DNA of 27,598 bases from NCBI GenBank assembly GCA_001275005.1, contig JWZX01002505.1, positions 1 to 27,598 of the forward strand, written 5' to 3'. Positions 4,480-21,005 of the stretch are shown piece after piece. Below the pieces are notes generated by a model. It was not told where the DNA came from and searched no databases. It was given only the letters and a program-made list of their open reading frames with translations. Origin of the DNA: Chrysochromulina tobinii. Lineage: Eukaryota > Haptophyta > Prymnesiales > Chrysochromulinaceae. The position numbers were made by a program, and so were the translations under genes. Position 1 is the stretch's first letter. Each line of letters begins with the position of its first letter.

Positions 4480-6156
4480 ATGGCGTGTCTGGGCAAGTAC
4501 TTGAATGGGGTGGACCCGGCAAATATCACGTCGCTCGAAGAGTTGCTCGAGAAGACCGACCTGAAGAGCGTGCATGAGCTCCTGAAGCAGCAGGGCATCG
4601 CGACGCTCGAGGCGTTCATGATGCTCACACCATCGGCCATCGAGACCATGGGAGTGACCAAGGGCCTCAGGATTCGCCTGCTTCGTGCGGCCGAAATGAT
4701 GCGGCAAGCCCGCCCGGTCGAGTTTCCACGCGAGGAGGATGCCCTCATGTCCGACACGGGAGAAGCCGACACTATGCCGCCGAAGCACAACTCGACGAGC
4801 TCATTATACATAGACTCGACGATCTCGTCGCCCGACTTCACCCGGGTGGTCTTCTGCGTCTCGATCCTCGTCCACGACCTGATCGTCGAGGGCGAGGCCT
4901 CGCACCAGGCCAAGCTTGCGGCCGGCCTCACGCCCACCAACCCGTGCGCTCTCTTCCGCCCCAAGGAGATCTTCGTCACGGGCAAGCGCCAGCGTGAAGA
5001 AGACGATACGTCCGTGCGCGGCGGTCCGCTCGCGCGGCCGGCAGCACCCGCGCCGCAGCCTACGACTTTCGCCGTCGGCGCCTCGTCCTCCAGTGCGGCT
5101 GCTCAGATGATGCCGCCACCGCCGCCGCGCCAAGCTATGCGTCAAGCGTCGTCAAGTGATGCGGTATCGATGGATTGCACCGGGTACGGCGACGCGGGAG
5201 CGGCGGCCAGCACGACACCATCCCCACCGCCGCCAAGGACGGTGCTCGTGGAGGCGCCGCCGCATCAGCCGCCCCTCTGGATGAGCAGCAGCAGCAGCAG
5301 CAGCGCCTCTGGTGGGTACAACCCTAATATGGATGGGCGCCCTAATATGGATGATCGCCCTAATATGGGTTCCTCGGCTTGTGCAGACTCCACCTCGTGC
5401 GCCGCCAACGCTGCCGAGCCCATGGACACCGAAATCCCTAGCGAGGACGAGATTTGTCAGGCCCTGCAGCAGATGCATGCGCTCATGCGCATGCATCCGG
5501 GCTGCCTGGTGGTGGCGATGATCTACATTGAGCGCTTGCGGCGCGGCACGCATTCAGATCTCCTCGTGTCGACGTGGCAGCCGACGCTCTTCGCCGCCGT
5601 CATCCTCGCACAAAAGGTGTGGGAAGATGGCCGGCACTATCGAGCACCGAAGGACTACGTGCTTCTCAATGCGGTGCGCTCCGCCTGCCCCCCTTGCACG
5701 CCCCTCACCTGCCCCCCTTCCGCGCTTCTCAATGCGGTGCGCTCCGCCTGCCCCCCTTGCACGTCACTCTTCCCCTCACCCCTCAGACGCCCCTCACCTG
5801 CCCCCCTTCCCCACTCCTCACCTGCCCCCCCCCGCCCGCCCACTCCCCACTCCCAGACGGTGACGAAGGCGCAGATGGCCCAGCTCGAGCGAGATTTCCT
5901 TCAGGCGATCGACTACAACGTGGGTATCAAGGCGGCCGTCTACACCGAATGGTACTTCAAGATCTGCACCTTCGCCGAGCGGCTGAGCGCGCCCCTCCGA
6001 CCACTGGGCAAAGATGTGGCCACGCTGCTTGAGATTCGAGGCGCGGCGTTTGAGGAGAAGATTCTCGCCGAGCGCCCCCAGTCGCAATCTGACCCCACCT
6101 TGTCGGACAGCTGCAAGGCGCCGCCCGCGCCGCGCTCGCGCATCGTGCTGAGCTGA
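4480..6156 (+). CDS. cyclin Y-like protein with N-terminal SAM-like segment
   Basis: The ATG at 4480 opens an uninterrupted frame of 558 codons. Residues 1-85 look like a SAM-type helical bundle (SLEELLEKTDLKSVHELL, then LTPSAIETMGVTKGLRIRLL). A long low-complexity linker rich in Pro and Ser follows. The cyclin box spans roughly residues 320-510 and reads as the cyclin Y type: CLVVAMIYIERL, then STWQPTLFAAVILAQKVWED, then LERDFLQAIDYNV, then VYTEWYFKICTFAE. Cyclin Y partners CDK14/16-class kinases at membranes in animals; here only the fold is claimed. An intron at 5674-5856 (183 nt, GTGCGC...CCCAG) interrupts the box between LNA and TVTKAQ; it is a multiple of three and stop-free, so the frame also reads through it. 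Removing it gives about 497 aa and restores the family's spacing. A second candidate intron (5312-5386, 75 nt) lies in the linker. Confidence 0.8.
   Translation: MACLGKYLNGVDPANITSLEELLEKTDLKSVHELLKQQGIATLEAFMMLTPSAIETMGVTKGLRIRLLRAAEMMRQARPVEFPREEDALMSDTGEADTMPPKHNSTSSLYIDSTISSPDFTRVVFCVSILVHDLIVEGEASHQAKLAAGLTPTNPCALFRPKEIFVTGKRQREEDDTSVRGGPLARPAAPAPQPTTFAVGASSSSAAAQMMPPPPPRQAMRQASSSDAVSMDCTGYGDAGAAASTTPSPPPPRTVLVEAPPHQPPLWMSSSSSSSASGGYNPNMDGRPNMDDRPNMGSSACADSTSCAANAAEPMDTEIPSEDEICQALQQMHALMRMHPGCLVVAMIYIERLRRGTHSDLLVSTWQPTLFAAVILAQKVWEDGRHYRAPKDYVLLNAVRSACPPCTPLTCPPSALLNAVRSACPPCTSLFPSPLRRPSPAPLPHSSPAPPRPPTPHSQTVTKAQMAQLERDFLQAIDYNVGIKAAVYTEWYFKICTFAERLSAPLRPLGKDVATLLEIRGAAFEEKILAERPQSQSDPTLSDSCKAPPAPRSRIVLS
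5312..5386 (+). repeat. CCCTAATATGG triple repeat, possible 75-nt intron
   Basis: Three copies of CCCTAATATGG spaced by 18 bp lie between a GTGGGT and a CTTGTGCAG. If spliced, exactly 75 nt (25 codons) are removed and the frame is kept; if not, they encode an Asn-Met-Asp repeat. The same undecamer is repeated at 6847-6872, inside a different gene and between duplicated flanks. Confidence 0.5.
5661..5763 (+). repeat. 40-bp direct duplication of exon end plus 5' splice site in the cyclin intron
   Basis: Bases 5661-5700 and 5724-5763 are identical over 40 bp, with period 63. Each copy contains the exon end CTCAATGCG and the splice donor GTGCGC, so the intron has two donor sites, at 5674 and 5737, both keeping the frame (introns of 183 and 120 nt). 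Use of the second would add 21 codons to the cyclin box. Confidence 0.85.
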
Positions 6157-6619: not shown

Positions 6620-7560
6620 TCAGGTCTCCATGAAAGCCTCCAACGGCCTCGCCCTCGCCGCCGCCCTCGCCGCCGCCCTCGCCGCCGCCCACACCTCCCG
6701 ACCAGCGAACGCCGTCGTGAGCGCCGCCCATGCGCCAAGGTACAGCTGCATGCGAGTGCTCAATACGGCGCCATTTCCCACAGACGATCGTCCATGCGTC
6801 AAGGTACAGCTGCGCTGCACACAGTAGCCAAAGGGCGGCGAGCCATCCCTAATATGGTCATCCCTAATATGGTCACACAGTGGCCAAAGGGGGACGAGCC
6901 AGCGGACGCGGTGGCAAGCGCCCGTAACAGCGACGCAGCTCGCCCCATCGAAGCCTGAGGTCGGCCAGCATCGCGAGCATCGGCCACAGGAGGAGGGCGA
7001 TCGCTGGGAGGACCGTCTGTGGGGAAATGGCGCCGTGATGAGCACTTGCATGCAGGGCGATCGCTGGGAGGACCGTCTCTCGCACGCTCGGCACGGCGCC
7101 GATCTCGTCGGGAGCTCCGCCGATCTCGTCGGGAGCTCCGCCCATCCGTCGGCTGAGCTCGTGTGACCAGAGCACAGACGAGCCAAAGGCGGGTGCGGGG
7201 ATGGCCGCGAGGAGGCCGAAGCGCACACCGAGGAGGAGGGCGCTGTTGAGGCTGAGCGCACGGGTGAACACTACCACGGACGGCGCGTGCGGCGAGGCCT
7301 TATCGATCGAGAAGTACAGAAGGTACAAGACGAGGGTGCCTTCTGATGGGCTGACGAGCTGGCTTTGCTGGGATCTGGTCGTGGGCAGCCCGTCGTCCTC
7401 TCGAGTTCGGCGAGCGCGACCACCTGAGCGCACTGCTCAGGTCTGACCAGATGTGCCTTGCTGGGCGCAAAGTACACGATGAGCGCGACGAAGCTAAGGA
7501 AGAAGAGACGCTCGACGATCCACGGGAGCGATGAAGGCTCGGCGCGGAGTGCTCGGCACC
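6620..7560 (-). CDS. multi-pass membrane protein gene, exons unresolved, PIG-C-like in part
   Basis: Several minus-strand segments look like membrane-protein coding but lie in different frames: LPWIVERLFFLSFVALIVYFAPSK (about 7470-7530), then EGTLVLYLLYF and FTRALSLNSALLLGVRFG (about 7195-7340), then LPAIALLLWPMLAML, then VRWLVPLWPLC and QLYLGAWAALTTAFAG (about 6690-6910). The pieces LSLNSALL and LLWPML, in this order, resemble GPI-GlcNAc-transferase subunit C (PIG-C/GPI2), but the family's C-terminal GPWDE motif is not seen. The region holds two copies of the introner-like element and one CCCTAATATGG insertion, each flanked by duplicated exon sequence, plus a 21-bp tandem duplication at 7098-7139. 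I cannot give a unique gene model; it may be intron-rich or decaying. The start is probably near 7540-7600. Confidence 0.35.
6748..6783 (+). mobile_element. introner-like element copy 1 (plus orientation)
   Basis: 36 nt starting GCATGC, with the branch-like CTCAA box, CGGCGCC and a 3' end TTTCCCACAG. It is flanked by direct repeats of 19 bp, 6729-6747 and 6793-6811, with one mismatch. Orientation is opposite to the other five copies and to the membrane-protein gene suspected here. Confidence 0.75.
6818..6900 (+). mobile_element. second small insertion: CCCTAATATGG pair between 27-bp direct repeats
   Basis: Bases 6818-6844 and 6874-6900 match at 24 of 27 positions. Between them lie two copies of ATCCCTAATATGGTC. 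The net insertion is 56 bp. On the plus strand the segment ends GTCACACAG, an acceptor-like 3' end. Removing the insert restores an open minus-strand reading frame through a hydrophobic segment, so the target was probably coding on the minus strand. Confidence 0.65.
6994..7076 (-). mobile_element. introner-like element copy 2 with perfect 23-bp flanking duplication
   Basis: The element body is 7017-7053 on the minus strand (37 nt): GCATGC, then CTCAT, CGGCGCC, and TTTCCCCACAG at its 3' end. The flanks 6994-7016 and 7054-7076 are identical over 23 bp. With the donor GT taken from the upstream duplicate, a 57-nt intron is removed and the frame of the surrounding membrane segment is kept. Identity of the flanks indicates a young insertion. 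Confidence 0.8.
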
Positions 7561-8043
7561 CTTGTCATGGCTGGTGGCGACCTCTGTGCCATGGCCCGCA
7601 CGCTTTGTGGCCGCAGCACGCTCTTGGGCAAGCGTGGGTTGAACGCTCTTGGGCGTGCTGCTGCTACGCTGCTCACGCAAGAAAGACATGCGCAAAACAT
7701 GAACCTCGAGATCGATGCTGACACTGCGTGGCCTACGAGGTTCCTACACACGAAGAGGCTCGAGAGCGAGAGGACATCGGCACATCGGCCATCCTGTGAC
7801 CGCTTTTCGAAGCCTAAGATTTCTTCGAAGTCAAAAATTGGATCCACAAATGAGGAATCTCCGGACCGTGAGAGGTCAAGCATGCGTTCCCATTTTCTAT
7901 CAAAATTGGAAAAAAGAGGGGTCGGCCGCCGCGTGGTCACGAGAAAAGGTGTCCCTTTCCCCTTGCCTCCCTTTGCCCGCGCCGCGTCCCGCGTCGGCCG
8001 TCATTGACCCGGGACTCGGAGCGGATCGCGCTCTCAGACAAAC
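7561..8043. other. region upstream of the small basic protein gene, no supported gene
   Basis: Both strands have open frames here but none shows a recognisable domain or clean start. Bases 7800-7920 are relatively AT-rich (aagatttcttcgaagtca, then ctatcaaaattgg). The stretch lies between the minus-strand membrane gene and the plus-strand gene at 8044, so it probably holds promoters for both. Confidence 0.4.
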
Positions 8044-8373
8044 ATGGCCAAGCGCAGCAAGAACATCAAGCACAAGTGCATCCACCTGAACGACATGCGC
8101 CTCGAGATCGCCGAGGCCGCGAAGGCCAAGTACCTCTGGCACGAGGAGCACGTGAGCTCCTCCCCAGCGCCCGTCCCTGATCATTCCTCTGCTGCCGCCA
8201 CGCTTAATTCCCTTGCTGCTGCCGCACCAATGATCCCGAGGAACCGCGCCGCTCCTCTCACCGCCGCTCGTCGTGCCCCGTGCCTTTCACGTGCGCAGAA
8301 GGAAGCGGCCGAGAAGGCGAAGGATGCCTTCGTCAAGCTCTACGGCACCAGCAAGAAGAGCATCCTGAGCTAG
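8044..8373 (+). CDS. small basic protein of about 60 aa with one intron
   Basis: The ATG at 8044 follows an AGACAAAC context. The first exon encodes 36 residues (MAKRSKNIKHKCIHLNDMRL, then a helix ending LWHEEH). An intron is inferred at 8152-8298: donor GTGAGC after GAGCAC, acceptor TTTCACGTGCGCAG, with CTCAC boxes in between. It has 147 nt, a multiple of three, and is stop-free, so the frame also reads through as 109 aa; the read-through part is Ala/Pro-rich and looks non-coding. The second exon encodes KEAAEKAKDAFVKLYGTSKKSILS. The product would be lysine-rich and helical. I do not recognise the family; a nucleic-acid-associated role is possible only from charge. Confidence 0.55.
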   Translation: MAKRSKNIKHKCIHLNDMRLEIAEAAKAKYLWHEEHVSSSPAPVPDHSSAAATLNSLAAAAPMIPRNRAAPLTAARRAPCLSRAQKEAAEKAKDAFVKLYGTSKKSILS

Positions 8374-8758
8374 GCACGCGTATCGCATGATTTGTACTGG
8401 CGCGCCCCCGGGCCCCCTCACGCCGGTGGTCCGGTCCGAGACGTCGTGCCTGCGCGGTCTCTCTGCCAGGCTATCCTTGAGAGTTCTGTGGGTTTTACAA
8501 TTGCAGCGGGTGCAGACCGCATTAAAACGGAACTGAAACTCGATGCGTGGACACCGCCACCTCTCTTTCTCTGCCACGCGCGCCACGCAGGAAGCTGTCC
8601 GCTGCCACGCGCTCTCTCCGCTCGCGCACCTTCCGGCTTCCGGTTCCGCTTCCCACACACCGCGACGGCCCCGCCGGCGCGGGCGGTACAGTGACGAGTG
8701 AGACAAGTTAAGAGGGTCCGATTCTCCTAGTAACGGCCGACGTCCTAGGTCAATCCTC
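8374..8758. other. convergent intergenic stretch
   Basis: It lies between the 3' ends of the plus-strand small-protein gene and the minus-strand RBR gene. Open frames exist on both strands but show no protein-like pattern. No hairpin or repeat of note is seen. It presumably contains both 3' untranslated regions. Confidence 0.45.
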
Positions 8759-11700
8759 TCAGTTGTCCCACTCATCGTCGTCCTCCATGTCGTCGTCCTC
8801 CTCGTCCATCGAGTCAGCGTCGCTGTCGACTGGCGGTACCGGTAGCCTGTCGTCCACATCGTTCGCCCTGCCGGCCCCTCCCCCTTCCACCACAGCGCCA
8901 CCGACACCACCGACACCAGCGCCACCGACGCCTCCAACACCGACGCCGAAGCGCATCGCAAAGTGTTCACGGAGCCTGGGCGGCACCGAAGGGTCCTGAA
9001 GGATCCCGTGGACGTGCAACACCTGCACAGGCAGAGCGCCGTGGTGAGCACTTGCATGCTGGGCAGGCTGTGGGGATCCTATGGACGAGCAATACCTCAT
9101 TCTCGAGCCTCTGCACTTCGAGACGACCCCCGACGGTCTGGCCGAGCTCCTCCACCCGCTCGGCGACCACAAGCGCCGCCGCCGCCGCCGGTGGCAGGCC
9201 GAGCGGGTCGCGTCCCGCAGCGCTGTTCAAATGGGCACATAGGAGACCGCACTCAGTCGCAATCAGTCGCACTCAGTCGCACTCAGTCGCACTCGGTCGC
9301 ACTCAGTCGCAATCAATCGCACTCACCTGTTGAAATAGGCGCGGTGCGCTTCGGCAAAGACACGCAGCGTGAATGCTGTGTGGAGCGCATCGTGACGCAA
9401 CGATTGCTCGTTCAACAGCCTTATGAGTTGCTCCCCTCGCTGTTGCAGCTCGTCAGCGACACCGTCCAGCTCGCGCCGCGCCTCAGCGAAGAGCTCCTCC
9501 TCGTCGCGATGCCGAGCTGGCAGGCCCAGCCCGGGAGGAGCGGCGCGCGCGCCGTCATGGGCGTCGCCCACGACGGCGCGCGCGCCGTCTTGGGCGCCGT
9601 CCACCGCCGCTGCCGCCACCCCGGCGGCGGCGCCTCGCCCGCCCAACACGGCGCCTCGCCCGCCTCGCCAGCCTCGCAGCCACGCCGACGGGTCGAGCGC
9701 CGTGTTGAGCGCCGGCCACACGCGCGGCGCGAGCGTGAGTGCGCATGCAATCCCCGCCGGGAGTGCGGCGAGGAGCACGGCGCGATGGGCGCTGTGGTAG
9801 GGCGGCAGCGGCGCGCCCCCGGAGGGTAGGCTCGGACCAGACGGACCATACGGACCATACGAGGCGCTGAGCTCCCGCGTCGAGATGCCGTCCGGAGAGG
9901 TCTCATCAGAGGTCGTTACGGAGGCTGCCCAAATGGAACTCCCTCCCTCGCCCTCGCCCTCGCCCTCGGCGCCCGACACGGCGCCCTCGTCGCCCATGCG
10001 CGCGAGCATGGCGAGCATGCAAACGAGGAGACCACTCGACAAGACGACGAGCACGACCGCCGGCACACGGCGCACGCCGCCGCCACGGCCGTGGAACAAG
10101 GCGCCGTCTTGGGCGTCGTGGCAGTGGAAGGCGCTTAAGGACAAGCCGACCCAGCACACATTGAGGAGCGCCGCCATCCATCGGAGCGCTTCCCACGTCG
10201 GCGAGGCGGCGGCGGCGAGTTGCACGGGATCGTTCCACAGTGAGACAAGTCCATCGGTCGGGTCTTCGAGCCAGACGCGAATGAAACTCGGCAGGCAGGA
10301 GCGCAGCCCGAGGAGTAGCAGCACGAGAAGCAGGAAGAGGTACGAATACAGACGCACCTGTGGGGAAGAGGAGGGCGCCGTGGTGAGCACGTGCATGCCT
10401 GTGGGGAAGAGGTACGAATACAGACGCACCAGCTCGAAGCCATGGCTGAGGAGCTCCTCGGTCGGCAGGAGCAGCCGACCCGTCCACACGGTCCATAAGG
10501 GGATCCATAGGGCGAGGAGCTGCCCCACGTGCGCCCCGAAGCCGGTGAGGCACACCTGTATGCAATCGAGAGGCGTGGTCAGCATGCAAGTGGCACTCAG
10601 CATGCAATGCGGGAGGCGAGGTCAGCATGCAATGGAGGTGCACTCAGCATGCCATGCGAGAGGCTATGCGAAGCGGGCGAGGCACACCATCGCGGCCGGC
10701 AGGTGCAGACCGTGCAGGAGGGCGTGAAACGGGTTGATCCCCACAGGGAGCACCGAAGACAAGGGCGACCAGATCAAGCCAGTGCTGAAGACTCCGGCGG
10801 GCGCGAACGTGGCCTCAAGGTCCGCCCACAAGCCCACAGAGTAGCGATCGAACGCGAGGAAGAGGGATGCATGCATCAGTAGCGCCCGCCCGTCCATGAG
10901 CAGCCGGAGCGCGTCGTAGTGGAGATCCTCGCACCTGTGGGGAAGAGTAGGGCGCCGTGGTGAGCACGTGCATGCCTGTGGGGAAGAGGAGCTCCTCGCA
11001 CCTGTGGGGAAGAGAAGGGCGCCGTGGTGAGCACGTGCATGCCTGTGGGGAAGAGGAGCTCCTCGCACCGGTAATTGAGCTCGCCATCGAGGCGCAGCTC
11101 GTCGAGCTCCACCTCGGGGTCGATGGCGACGCGTGAATGCATTTGCCGCTGCACGCCCGCCTGCTCCACGCCACCAAGGAGCGATGCAACCGCAGTCCAG
11201 CTGAGCATGCTCGTGAGGGCGCACGAGAGCACGAGAGTCCCCACTGTTCCGAAGGCGCCCCATAAGTAGGCGAGGGCCGTTGGGAGGATCGCCAGCAGCC
11301 GGGTGGGGAGGGTGGCGCCGGCGGGTGCGACGCATGCCGCCGCGAAACGGACGAGAAGGCTCGAGATTGCCCAGAAGGCAATGAGCACGAGCCGCGTCAC
11401 GAGCGACACGAGCCCCGCGGCGAGCGGCGCGCACACGACGGGCAGTAAGCTCTCGAGCTCATACGCGGCGTTCGCGACGGCGGGCAGGGCGGCCCGGCAG
11501 CGCCGGCTCATCGAATACCCTTGTGCGTTGTTCAGTCCAAACGCCAACGGTCGGGCTCTATGGGGCGCTGCGGGCTCAGGCGGGTCACGGCACGCTGGTA
11601 TCACGCGCACGGACTCTCGCGCGCTGTACGCCGTCAGCCGAGGCGCGTCGTCCCGAGCGAAGATCGCGCTGACGAAACTTTGGAGCCGTTGGACGAGCCT

Positions 11701-13116
11701 ATCTCGCATGAGCTCCGCCCTCGGCACGGGCGGCGGGTGCGGCGGCAGCACGCCCCATCTCTCGAGCCTCTTCATCAGCGCGATCAGACGGAACGTGCCC
11801 ATCCCCATCAACGAGATGTCGACCTGGCGCACCGCCAGATAGGAGGCCAGTCGGCGAGGCACTGCGCGCAGGCTGGCGCGTGCGAGGGCGAGGTGCGCCA
11901 GGCTGAGCACGAGCTGCGCGACCGCCAGCTGCGTCGCGCGCGGCGCCTCGAGCAGCGCCGTCAGCGCCGCGCACACGCCAGCGCACAGGAGGTCCGCCTG
12001 CTGCAGCACGGCGCCCGCGAGAAGAGCACCGAAGAGACGTCGCAGTGCGGCGGCGTCGGCGGCAAAGAGGATGGCACGGCGCCAGGAGACCGAGGCGAGG
12101 CGCGCCCGCGCCTCGGCCGTGCGCCGCCCGCCAAACTGCGGGCACGAGCACCGCTCGGACAGAGGCCCCAAGCAGAGCCAGCAGAACGAGTGGCCGCAGC
12201 GGCAGTCCATGTGGTTGCAGCCGGCGCGCCGTTCGATGAAGACGCCGCACTGAGGGCACTGTCCCGCGTCGCGTCGCGCACACCAGCGCACAAGCTGCGC
12301 CGCGTGCAGCTCCTCGCACAGCGTGCCCGGGTGCCACGGGGCCTTGCAGTCCTGGCACACCGAATGGCCACACGAGGGGCACTCGGCTCGCCGGCGCGGG
12401 CCAACTCGGCCGCTCCCTTTCCAAAAGGCTCCGCCGAAGCCGAGGGCGCCGAGCACGGCGGTGGCGATGCCAAGTCGGGGCGTCAGTCCGATCGCCTCGC
12501 TCAGCGTCGGGTACAGGAGCGGCAGCGAGGCGAGCGCCGCACTGCCCGCGAAGCATGCCACCGCCGTGCCTGCCGACACCGGCGACTCCTCGACGCACGG
12601 CAGGCACACGGTGCCGCAGCCCGGCTGCGCGCACCAGCGCGTCTCCGGGTCACGCTCGGCGCGCTGCGCGGCGACGAACGCGTCGTACCGGTGCAGCCAC
12701 GCCCCATCCAGCGATGCCGCCACCTCGGCACGGCTCACCTCCGGGCAGTGCCGCTCGCCGGGGTCGGCGCCGCTCGCCGGGCACGGCAGCTCGAGCACAG
12801 AGCGCTCGTCGATGCGCACGCGCAGATATTGCTGCCAGCAGGGCCCGCAGAAGGTGTGGCCGCACGAGTGGCGCGGCGCCCCAACCACTTCGAGGCAGAT
12901 CAGGCACCTTGGGAGCAGCGCGTCTGCAGCTTCGGAGGCGGCGGCTGCAGCGGCGGAGGCTGCGGCGGCGATGGCGGCAGCGTCGGCCGCGAAGGCAGCG
13001 GCGGGCACGATGTCACGTCGTTGGCGCACGGGCGAGCGTGAGGCGCGGCGAGGCAGCTGAACACGCCCCTCGACTCGCTGCTGCAGCGAGCCTCTCATCG
13101 CGCGTGTGAGCACCAT
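8759..13116 (-). CDS. multi-span membrane RBR-type E3 ubiquitin ligase, six exons
   Basis: Exons, in gene order: 13116-11069, 10934-10688, 10555-10430, 10357-9327, 9222-9096, 9022-8759. They total 3843 nt, exactly 1281 codons, and all junction phases agree. RING1 starts at C71 (CLICLE...CGHTFC). The IBR begins WCAQPGC (162-167) and ends with [19 protein letters not shown] (246-264). RING2 is [28 protein letters not shown], with the predicted catalytic Cys at 300. RBR ligases take ubiquitin from an E2 onto this Cys and pass it to substrate. About 75 residues with two hydrophobic helices split the IBR. After RING2 come several membrane segments in exon 1 and more in exons 3-4 (e.g. [32 protein letters not shown]). 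The C-terminus is helical, then Gly/Val-rich, ending in an Asp/Glu tail. It is likely an organelle-membrane ligase; the compartment is unknown. Every intron is bounded by a duplicated exon edge. Confidence 0.8.
9023..9095 (-). mobile_element. RBR intron 5 (73 nt) containing introner-like copy 3
   Basis: Donor GTATTG at 9095, acceptor CTGTGCAG ending at 9023. The intron's first 22 nt match the first 22 nt of the downstream exon at 18 positions. The 3' half (9023-9059) is a diverged element copy with GCATGC, CTCAC and CGGCGC. Divergence of the flanks and acceptor suggests an older insertion. Confidence 0.75.
9223..9326 (-). repeat. RBR intron 4 (104 nt) filled by a 10-bp repeat
   Basis: Donor GTGAGT at 9326 and acceptor TTTGAACAG ending at 9223. 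The body is about eight copies of a decamer (plus strand ACTCAGTCGC, with A/C and G/A variants) at 9251-9325. The last 14 nt of the upstream exon (ending TTTCAACAG) match the last 14 nt of the intron at 12 positions, so the duplicated edge here supplies the acceptor. Confidence 0.75.
10358..10429 (-). mobile_element. RBR intron 3 (72 nt) with introner-like copy 4 and perfect 25-bp duplication
   Basis: Donor GTGCGT at 10429, acceptor TTCCCCACAG ending at 10358. Bases 10405-10429 and 10333-10357 are identical over 25 bp: the intron begins with a copy of the downstream exon's first 25 nt. The body 10358-10398 is the element (GCATGC, CTCAC, CGGCGCC, polypyrimidine, CCCCACAG). The intron is a multiple of three and stop-free. 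This is the clearest young example. Confidence 0.85.
10556..10687 (-). other. RBR intron 2 (132 nt), GCATGC-rich body
   Basis: Donor GTGTGC at 10687, acceptor GCATACAG ending at 10556. Its first 20 nt match the first 20 nt of the following exon at 17 positions. The body contains four GCATGCTGA units at irregular spacing, and in-frame stops, so it must be spliced for the protein to continue. It shares only the GCATGC core with the introner-like element. Confidence 0.75.
10935..11068 (-). mobile_element. RBR intron 1 (134 nt): two tandem 67-nt units with introner-like copies 5 and 6
   Basis: Donor GTGCGA at 11068, acceptor CCCCACAG ending at 10935. The intron is exactly two 67-nt units, each made of an exon-start copy (GTGCGAGGAGCTCC) and an element body (11002-11042 and 10935-10975). 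The real downstream exon begins GTGCGAGGATCTCC, one mismatch away. The tandem structure offers internal donor and acceptor sites. Confidence 0.8.
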
Positions 13117-19184: not shown

Positions 19185-19783
19185 TTAATCGCGCCGCGCT
19201 CGAGCTGCGCCCACGGCCCGGGACCCTCGGGCGATGCGCAGCAATCGATCCACTTCCTCCGGATCAAAAAGCAGCGCCGCCGCGTGCTCAATGAGCGACA
19301 CGTCGGCCTGCATGTCTTCGAGGCGGTTGTACGATGGCAGCCGCTGCGCCGCGCGCGCCGCGTCGAGGGCACGAGCCCGCGCTTCATCGCTCGCGTCCGG
19401 CGCTAGCGAGAGGAGTAGCTCGAGCTGCTGGGAATGATCGTCATCGTCGTCTCTTGACGCGCCGGCGACGCGCGAGGCAGCAGCGCCGGTGGAGGCGGCA
19501 GCGCCGGCGCTCGCCTCGACGGATGGCGGCGGAAGCACCGGCAACTCAGGCTGGCTGGTTGGCTTGTCCATGAGAGGCTCCTCGACGAGCATTGCTGCCC
19601 CCTGGTCCGTCCCATCGAGCAAGGCAGGGTCGTCCCAGTTGCGCGGCGTGAGCACATCGTAGTGGCCCGGACGGTAGAGGACGCACGCCGCCAGCCGGCA
19701 ACGCACACGCGATACGGAGGCGACGGGCGCCGTGCCGGGCGCCGTGCTGGGCGCCGTGCTGGGCGTCTCTTCCGCAGCGCCCT

Positions 19784-19831
<48 letters not shown>

Positions 19832-21005
19832 GCGCGAGGGCGGCGCGGAGGCCACACACGACGTGCCTGTGCGGTCCGCGCGGGACCAGGTATTCGACGC
19901 GCACGACCACGTTGAGCGCCGTAGCGAGCGCCTGGATCTGCGGCTCGTCCGCCTCCACATCCATCGTCTCCACCTCCCGCGTACAGAACGTGTCCAGGTC
20001 GGTGCCGCCGTCGGTACCGCCGTCGGCCGCGCCGGCGCCGGCGCCGACGCCCGCGCCGTAGCTGATCGCGAGCGGCGCGTACACCTCCTTTTCGGAGCGC
20101 ATGCATGCCGAGGTGAGCAGCCGCAGCCAACGAAGGACCTCTCGGCTCTCGTCAGAGCGCCGCGCCGCCGCAAGCAGCGCTGCCACCGCCGCGTCGGCCG
20201 CGCCGGCCGCGGAGTCGGGCGCAGAGTCGGGCACATTGCACAGCGCGCAGGCCGAGCGCGCAAAGGTCTCGCCGAGCGTCACAAACGCGTGGCGGCGCTC
20301 GTCGTCAGGCAGGTGAGCGCGCATGGTACTCACCAGCGATGGCACCTCCTCCTCCCAGAAGCGCCTCCGCTCCGCTACCGGCAGCGCGAGCAGCCGCTCC
20401 ATGTATCCCATCCAAAGGGACCGGTAGAAGCAGTTGCCGTCGCCGCGCACGCGGCGGATGGCCACGTAGCGCGCCGAGAGCGCGCGCAGCTTCGCCGCCC
20501 AGAGGGCGCCGTGATCGCCCGCCGCATACTCGGCTTCGAGAATCGAGAGCGGCGCCGCGTCGCCCACGTTGGGCACCACCACCATACCGGCCTCGACGCG
20601 TGCGCCGGGCGTCGTGAGCGCCGCCTCCTGCTGCTCGTGCGCCATGCGCATGCTCTCGGCGATCGCGCGCTTCAGATCATCATCGTCGTTGTCAGTTCCT
20701 GCTTCCGTGGCGCCAATCGCGGCCGGCAAGGCGGCCGCCATCGCGGCCCAGCTGCCGACACCTTGCCGGCATGCACTGCCGCCAGAAGTGCCGCCGTTTC
20801 CGACGACTTCCTTCTGCTTACCGTTTGAAGGGCTGCCGCTGCCGCGGTCGCTGCCACCACTAGCTGGACCAGCTGCGCTGCTGGAGGCTCCCGCGCTGCT
20901 CGCTGACCGTGCCGTGCTGCCGGCGGCAGCGCCGCTCGCTGCAGAGCCGCCGGCAGCAGCACCACCTCGCTTCACAGGAGGCATGATGGGCATCTCGGCG
21001 TACAA
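19185..21005 (-). CDS. otubain-type deubiquitinase (peptidase C65) with N-terminal UIM
   Basis: 606 aa from the ATG at 21005. Residues 107-126 (DDDDLKRAIAESMRMAHEQQ) match a ubiquitin-interacting motif. The OTU core starts near 155. Asp189 and Cys192 lie in RRVRGDGNCFYRSL, the active-site Cys loop of otubains, and His449 in VLYRPGHYDVL is the matching catalytic His. Between them ETMDVEADEPQIQALATALNVVVRVEYL is the characteristic otubain region. Otubains cleave ubiquitin chains, OTUB1 preferring K48 linkage, and can block E2 enzymes. Compared with OTUB1 (about 270 aa) this protein has a long low-complexity N-terminus, an Ala run (19791-19830 in DNA) just before the catalytic His strand, and a C-terminal extension with LELLLSLAPDASDEARARALDAA that could be a small UBA/CUE-like helix bundle. 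Chain specificity cannot be read off. Confidence 0.88.
19786..19832 (-). repeat. GGC triplet repeat encoding a poly-Ala run
   Basis: About fourteen consecutive GGC/GCG triplets encode an Ala run inside the otubain catalytic domain, just before the His-containing strand. Triplet runs of this length are prone to slippage, so allele length may vary. Confidence 0.85.

Follow-up and report, generated by a model that had tools for sequence, protein, structure and literature searches.

How does a short repeat that seems to hold only the 3′ half of an intron come to lie again and again within genes? The question is raised by a stretch of 27,598 nucleotides (nt) from the haptophyte Chrysochromulina tobinii, contig JWZX01002505.1 (the window; contig C1357 in the assembly that was searched, which holds 53,154,812 bases in 2253 contigs). 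An initial annotation had recognized in it six copies of an element resembling introners, i.e., repeated sequences that generate introns. The present analysis favours, with a probability of roughly 85%, an introner family in which an insert bearing a conserved core enters an exon and the duplicated target supplies the splice site that the insert lacks.

The six copies were found again where, and on the strands on which, they had been placed. The pattern GCATGCANGTGCTCANNACGGCGC with up to 3 mismatches matches six times in the window against 0.00 matches expected (100 shuffles), and the two boxes said to be shared by all copies, GCATGC and CGGCGC, are present in 6/6. The CTCAY box described with them is found in five copies, the one at 6748 reading CTCAA, and the common terminal CCCCACAG is exact in four, being replaced by TTTCCCACAG at 6748 and by TGTGCAG at 9023. 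What the initial annotation missed is that the copies are flanked by two copies of the surrounding sequence, which agree at 25/25 positions at 7017, 23/25 at 6748, 26/26 at 10358 and 20/24 at 9023. The copies at 10935 and 11002 form a tandem pair with such a flanking stretch in common. A scan of the window against Rfam gave no matches.

A repeated core with duplicated targets

Hundreds of genomic copies had been named as one test of the introner proposal. The 25-nt core is found 2113 times in the whole assembly with up to 2 mismatches (1005 forward and 1108 reverse) and its reversed pattern, used as a control, 0 times. The exact right half followed by CCACAGG within 22 nt occurs at 515 places, 421 of which also hold the exact left half; the reversed pattern again occurs at none. 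Similar sequence is therefore present in many predicted introns at unrelated positions, as is characteristic of introners. The exact core has no match in the prokaryote genome collection and a single one in the viral collection, within IMGVR_UViG_3300027760_000958 (locus L031), where two other patterns gave no matches. About 370 bases of L031 match the algal genome at 85–97%, so that it looks like a misfiled algal contig and is probably eukaryotic.

Flanks were analysed in a sample of 131 copies (matched over 24 nt with up to 4 mismatches) from 52 sequences that amount to 311 kilobases (kb); some of the 131 are probably not members of the family, e.g., L032 4765 and L037 5357. After the 44 copies with a neighbouring core had been set aside, 87 single copies were scored for duplication against a control in which flanks from different copies were cross-paired. 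The score lies above the 99th percentile of this control in 55/87 copies and above the 95th in 64/87. Three of the 55 were dropped (two tandem-like, one far match), and the duplications of the remaining 52 are 18–49 nt long (median 30, standard deviation 7.6). The usual layout reads exon / GT...target copy 1 / 0–24 extra nt / GCATGC core / pyrimidines / CCCCACAG / GT...target copy 2, and the predicted intron measures 72–84.5 nt in the middle half of the copies. An acceptor stands at the junction in 47 of the 52. The view that the element has no donor is thus true of the sequence inserted here, and it is the duplicated target that provides the donor. Similarly, the view that each copy carries an acceptor applies to most; longer copies carry a donor instead, and 5/52 lack an acceptor at the junction. 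Head-to-tail arrays of a target copy plus core were seen at L040 4612-4831, L043 6172-6298 and L022.

Other candidate signals were set aside. The motif GTRCG begins 23/43 exon copies of the target against 118/1329 background GT, yet no enzyme preference is claimed, because C is already the commonest +4 base in exonic GTRNG (118/228 in the background, 23/28 observed). A negative correlation of duplication length with the remainder of the intron (rho -0.46) was not used, since it is partly built in, the decayed end of a duplication being counted as filler; against insert length alone, rho is -0.25 (p 0.08). An unselected scan for duplications at GT..AG was swamped by tandem repeats and is uninformative, as other dinucleotides are equally rich in them. 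Spaced duplications were also counted; 220 kb hold 42 of them, 14 with a core, which is no more than suggestive.

Orientation, reading frame and empty sites

Sense orientation was scored in 118/131 copies by a model that was strand-blind in training and tested on other loci, and in 99 against 4 of the confident calls. For the reading frame, donor and acceptor were set by the duplication, a codon model was trained on the flanks, and chance agreement is one third. The 52 copies tested in this way were chosen by criteria that differ from those of the 52 measured for duplication length, and the donor finder permitted GC (41 GT and 11 GC), so that some GC calls may be wrong. The model agrees across the junction in 37/52 copies, and in 32/40 when confident. 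Of the confident copies, 25 have a length that is not divisible by 3; splicing fits 20 of these, read-through 3 and neither reading 2. The genome holds one match to U1 RNA, the 5′ end of which is canonical, and its 58 matches to light-harvesting proteins accord with an algal origin. The predicted introns are probably spliced, with CTCAC as their putative branch site.

An empty site is provided by L031 and contig G000:C608 (C608), which share a stretch of DNA that differs by one insertion. In C608, a 50-nt insert (CTGCATGCATGCAAGTGCTCACGACGGCGCC...CCCCACAG) lies between two 25-nt copies starting with GTGCG, and L031 has a single copy. Once the insert and one target copy are omitted, the two agree at 94/96 positions. 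This one pair of DNA sequences shows insertion together with duplication.

Absence at the same site in relatives also extends to introns 1–3 of the window gene considered below, as judged from proteins. At intron 1, P0002, P0005, P0006 and P0007 are contiguous (LNYKWEEL, LAYSTEEL, LIYPIEEL and LTYSIECL, against LNYRCEDL in the window). At introns 2 and 3, P0005, P0006 and P0007 are contiguous, with a small alignment gap 20-odd residues off, and none of the alignments of P0001, P0002 and P0003 goes past intron 2. The proteins of the relatives were probably predicted without splicing, as suggested by the continuation of P0001 and P0002 into intron sequence. P0001, which is 96% identical, has one core copy at intron 1 and the window has two; hence array size differs between close relatives. 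Taken with the genome-wide copies, the sense orientation and the restored frame, the empty sites bear out the introner-like nature proposed for the element.

The window gene encodes a protein with RING and IBR domains (Pfam IBR, 1.2e-13, on the open reading frame 10876-13116). When spliced in silico, it forms one frame with an acidic end; unspliced, it stops at 746 amino acids. Its second and fourth predicted introns are laid out like those that hold the element, with other inserts, and the end of the fourth (ATTTGAACAG) resembles, by eye, the tail of the upstream exon (ATTTCAACAG). A duplicated target seems to lie on one side of each of the five introns, despite three kinds of insert, the case of 9223-9326 being a short likeness seen by eye. 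The two remaining copies, at 6748 and 7017, give no clean message-restoring intron by eye; at 7017 the GT sits 3 nt within the repeat, so that splicing would not exactly restore the message.

Table 1. Element copies, the RING-IBR gene and its predicted introns in the window
Feature	Position	Strand	Remarks
RING-IBR protein gene	8759..13116	-	1280 amino acids once five predicted introns are removed; contains 4/6 copies
Predicted intron 1, 134 nt	10935..11068	-	Tandem cores 10935-10975 and 11002-11042; donor GTGCGA inside target copy; acceptor CCACAG
Predicted intron 2, 132 nt	10556..10687	-	Third kind of insert, GCATGCTGA repeats; target GTGTGCCTCRCCSGCTTCG at 10669-10687 and again in exon at 10537-10555
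Predicted intron 3, 72 nt	10358..10429	-	Element 10358-10398; target copies 10405-10429 (intron) and 10333-10357 (exon)
Predicted intron 4, 104 nt	9223..9326	-	Largely 10-mer repeat GTGAGTGCG / GTGCGACTGA; donor at insert
Predicted intron 5, 73 nt	9023..9095	-	Element 9023-9059; diverged target copies 9074-9095 (intron) and 9001-9022 (exon)
Element copy	7017..7053	-	Identical 25-nt repeats on either side, 6994-7018 and 7054-7078
Element copy	6748..6783	+	25-nt repeats 6725-6749 and 6789-6813, 92%; no clean intron

Elsewhere in the window, a small gene at 8046-8370 (+) has a conventional-looking intron (GTGAGC...GCGCAG) at which no duplication was seen by eye. An otubain-type peptidase is encoded at 19185-21005 (-; Peptidase_C65, 4e-38), and the product of 4480-6156 (+) matches SAM and cyclin weakly.

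Donor-carrying copies, a second family and local spread

A longer left part of the element, CCACTGATGACCTGCCTT, is found at 184 places with up to 3 mismatches. A sample of mirror copies was taken from 20 loci, each with an exact match, which hold 23 copies; L053 and L055 are identical in sequence, hence the 23 are not all independent. The mirror element opens with a donor-like GTRCG (or GCACG) and then YTGATTGCC; after the core, the tail of the upstream exon is repeated. The duplication, 10–39 nt long, ends at the donor boundary in 20/23 copies against 155/2965 in the control. Nineteen of these 20 duplications end in AG, and the corresponding donors are GT in 14 cases, GC in 4 and neither in 2. 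By duplication score, only 2/23 mirror copies exceed the 99% control line; because the loci share a subfamily this control is inflated, and the position of the duplication end was used instead. Ten of the confident mirror frames fit splicing. The results at the donor boundary imply that a single core serves acceptor-carrying, donor-carrying and bare inserts. In addition, acceptor-carrying copies with a partial extension (L042 and L048) look like shortened donor-carrying introns.

A second, unlike family, CTGATGACCTCCCTCATCAGGT, has 1079 copies with up to 2 mismatches (reversed control, 0). Among 49 copies, 15 lie above the strict duplication control, with lengths of 29–61 nt, several of them being tandem units; examples are 39/39 at L049 6330 and 34/34 at L036 632. 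In several loci of this family (CTGATGACCTCCCTCATCAG), tandem CTGATGACCT units precede the copies.

Spread between neighbouring sites was assessed on the core plus pyrimidine tract of 115 copies, excluding pairs with similar exon flanks. The closest independent relative lies on the same contig for 25.5/101 copies; the permuted mean is 4.2, and 0/400 permutations reach the observed value. At L046 (copies 4016 and 5239), the 16 letters before the second core (CGCACTCCTCGAGCCT) match by eye the intron-side target of the first copy, as if the flank had been carried along during copying.

Possible modes of movement and relation to known introners

In the proposed mechanism, a piece of about 25–50 nt around the core (GCATGCAAGTGCTCACCACGGCGC), with a fit to a branch site and usually a pyrimidine tract and CCCCACAG, would enter an exon, and the insertion would duplicate 18–49 nt of the target. 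The first target copy, starting with GT, would form the intron's 5′ part, branch site and acceptor would come from the element, and the second target copy would serve as exon, so that splicing would restore the old message. Longer core copies would bring the donor, the duplicated exon tail ending in AG being turned into an acceptor. Existing introns, often a copy nearby, may provide the pieces, which would be copied either into staggered breaks or by way of template switching, and selection for splicing would keep the splice-site end exact.

Several observations weigh against this account. The 52 sequences were picked for holding the core and not at random. In the duplication test, 32/87 single copies fall below the 99% line and 23/87 below the 95% line. 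Antisense orientation is scored in 13/131 copies, and splicing does not fit 8/40 of the confident acceptor-side frames or 3/13 of the mirror ones. The proteins of the relatives come without their DNA, hence the absence of introns from these genes is itself deduced. Locality by mean similarity is barely raised, 79/2000 permutations reaching the observed value. Finally, the left end GCATGC is sharp: the right half has 268 matches, a number that includes chance ones, and 7–8 of the 8 left letters are present in 111 of them and 5–6 in only 12. Such an end, exact in 421/515 places, is more in keeping with a defined mobile unit than with random pieces.

Movement by repair or template copying is put forward tentatively, at slightly less than an even chance. 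It accounts for both acceptor- and donor-carrying copies, the sharp GCATGC end being its weak point, and the long variable duplications and the spread from nearby copies speak against an ordinary transposase with a fixed footprint. Such movement could belong to a host process independent of any one element, in which intron pieces that hold a branch site, and at most one splice site, are copied into exons, often of the same gene, a duplication of about 20–45 nt giving the missing site on either side. This broader version is possible, with the odds leaning against it. If it held, unlike families would share the process, and ‘introner’ would here denote a sequence that splices well and not a transposon.

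Alternatively, the introners could move as short non-autonomous retroposons, intron-derived RNA being reverse-transcribed at a nick by the enzyme of host retroelements (target-primed). This route predicts duplications that are long and variable, together with a 3′ end that is fixed and 5′ truncation to varying degrees. Duplication length does vary, extra letters lie on the 5′ side together with 5′ extensions of differing length, and the genome holds 26 RVT_1 matches, 22 of them over the cut-off. The predicted pattern fits most acceptor-carrying copies but not the donor-carrying ones: mirror copies hold their 5′ end and vary on the 3′ side, and even among acceptor-side copies the acceptor end is missing in 5/52. 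Retroposition is considered unlikely.

A miniature DNA transposon driven by an unknown transposase, as proposed for the introners of Micromonas and Aureococcus, would suit the sharp GCATGC end, the copy number and the spread to nearby sites, which is known for some DNA transposons. Cut-and-paste transposases leave a short fixed duplication, however, and the duplications found here (18–49 nt, 10–39 nt in mirror copies) lie outside the range of 3–9 base pairs (bp) given for earlier introners. No terminal inverted repeats were seen by eye (GCATGCAAGT against the reverse complement of the other end, CTGTGGGGAG), and the second family, with different ends, likewise makes long duplications. This origin is rated decidedly unlikely. 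The Helitron domain Helitron_like_N has 2 matches in the genome, one over the cut-off.

Two explanations would dispense with introners. Intron gain through tandem duplication of an AGGT-bearing exon piece, with the core added later, would agree with duplicated exon pieces that begin at GT and with the head-to-tail arrays (44/131 copies lie near another core); it is very improbable given that the same core occurs 2113 times, that core and duplication are both missing from the empty counterpart of C608 and that a 50-nt insert separates the target copies there. That the repeats are translated or regulatory sequence is barely credible, for although some predicted introns are open and a multiple of 3 in length, and P0001 reads through one as protein, 20/25 confident copies of other lengths keep the frame only if spliced and the window gene reaches its full length only in the same way.

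The introner family favoured here has partial counterparts elsewhere. The introners of Micromonas pusilla and Aureococcus anophagefferens were reportedly identified as DNA transposons with short duplications by Huff, Zilberman and Roy in 2016; they are said likewise to carry one splice site and to co-opt the other from the duplicated target. The comparisons that follow draw on parts of the cited papers. Gozashti et al. 2022 (PMC9860276) report 175 introner-bearing genomes, with introners in Symbiodinium, Chrysochromulina, Florenciella and Aureococcus sp. among others, and the present genome may be one of the 175. Their families have 5 to >2000 copies and median lengths from 30 nt, and in different species the element is described as bringing a 3′ site, a 5′ site, both of them or no site at all. 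Duplications of 3–9 bp are given there for earlier introners, and the pictured examples have 4 and 8 bp. The present elements resemble these in being short repeated intron makers that give one splice site, the duplicated target giving the other. They are unlike them in having variable duplications of 18–49 nt, no inverted ends by eye and both designs from one core. The introners of A. anophagefferens measure about 210 bp (PMC9481584).

Direct repeats also border the introners of Amoebophrya (PMC7789003), which differ in having direct repeats of 3–5 nt, inverted repeats of 8–20 nt and mostly non-canonical splice sites. Similarly, at new introns of Daphnia (PMC4202315) exon ends are directly repeated, which was ascribed to the repair of staggered breaks; these repeats are of 4–12 bp, and no high-copy core is described in the text drawn upon. 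In introns formed by tandem genomic duplication (PMC3443670), a duplicated exon piece likewise gives a splice site, whereas here a separate high-copy sequence lies between the copies. Direct repeats of 4–30 bp, partly found by eye, were reported near 213 introns (PMC11782384). The titles and abstract openings of the surveyed literature name no introner with duplications of 20–45 nt. The present family thus differs from the introners compared, as far as these sources describe them, in the length and variability of its duplications and in the use of one core in both designs; the design of one carried site plus target was itself already described (PMC9860276).

How a genome gains introns by the thousand is still an open question; introners have so far mostly been interpreted as DNA transposons. 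Long legible duplications, alleles with and without the intron and both splice-site arrangements from one core form a direct record of insertion, and in such a genome transposase, reverse transcription and repair can be tested against one another from sequence.

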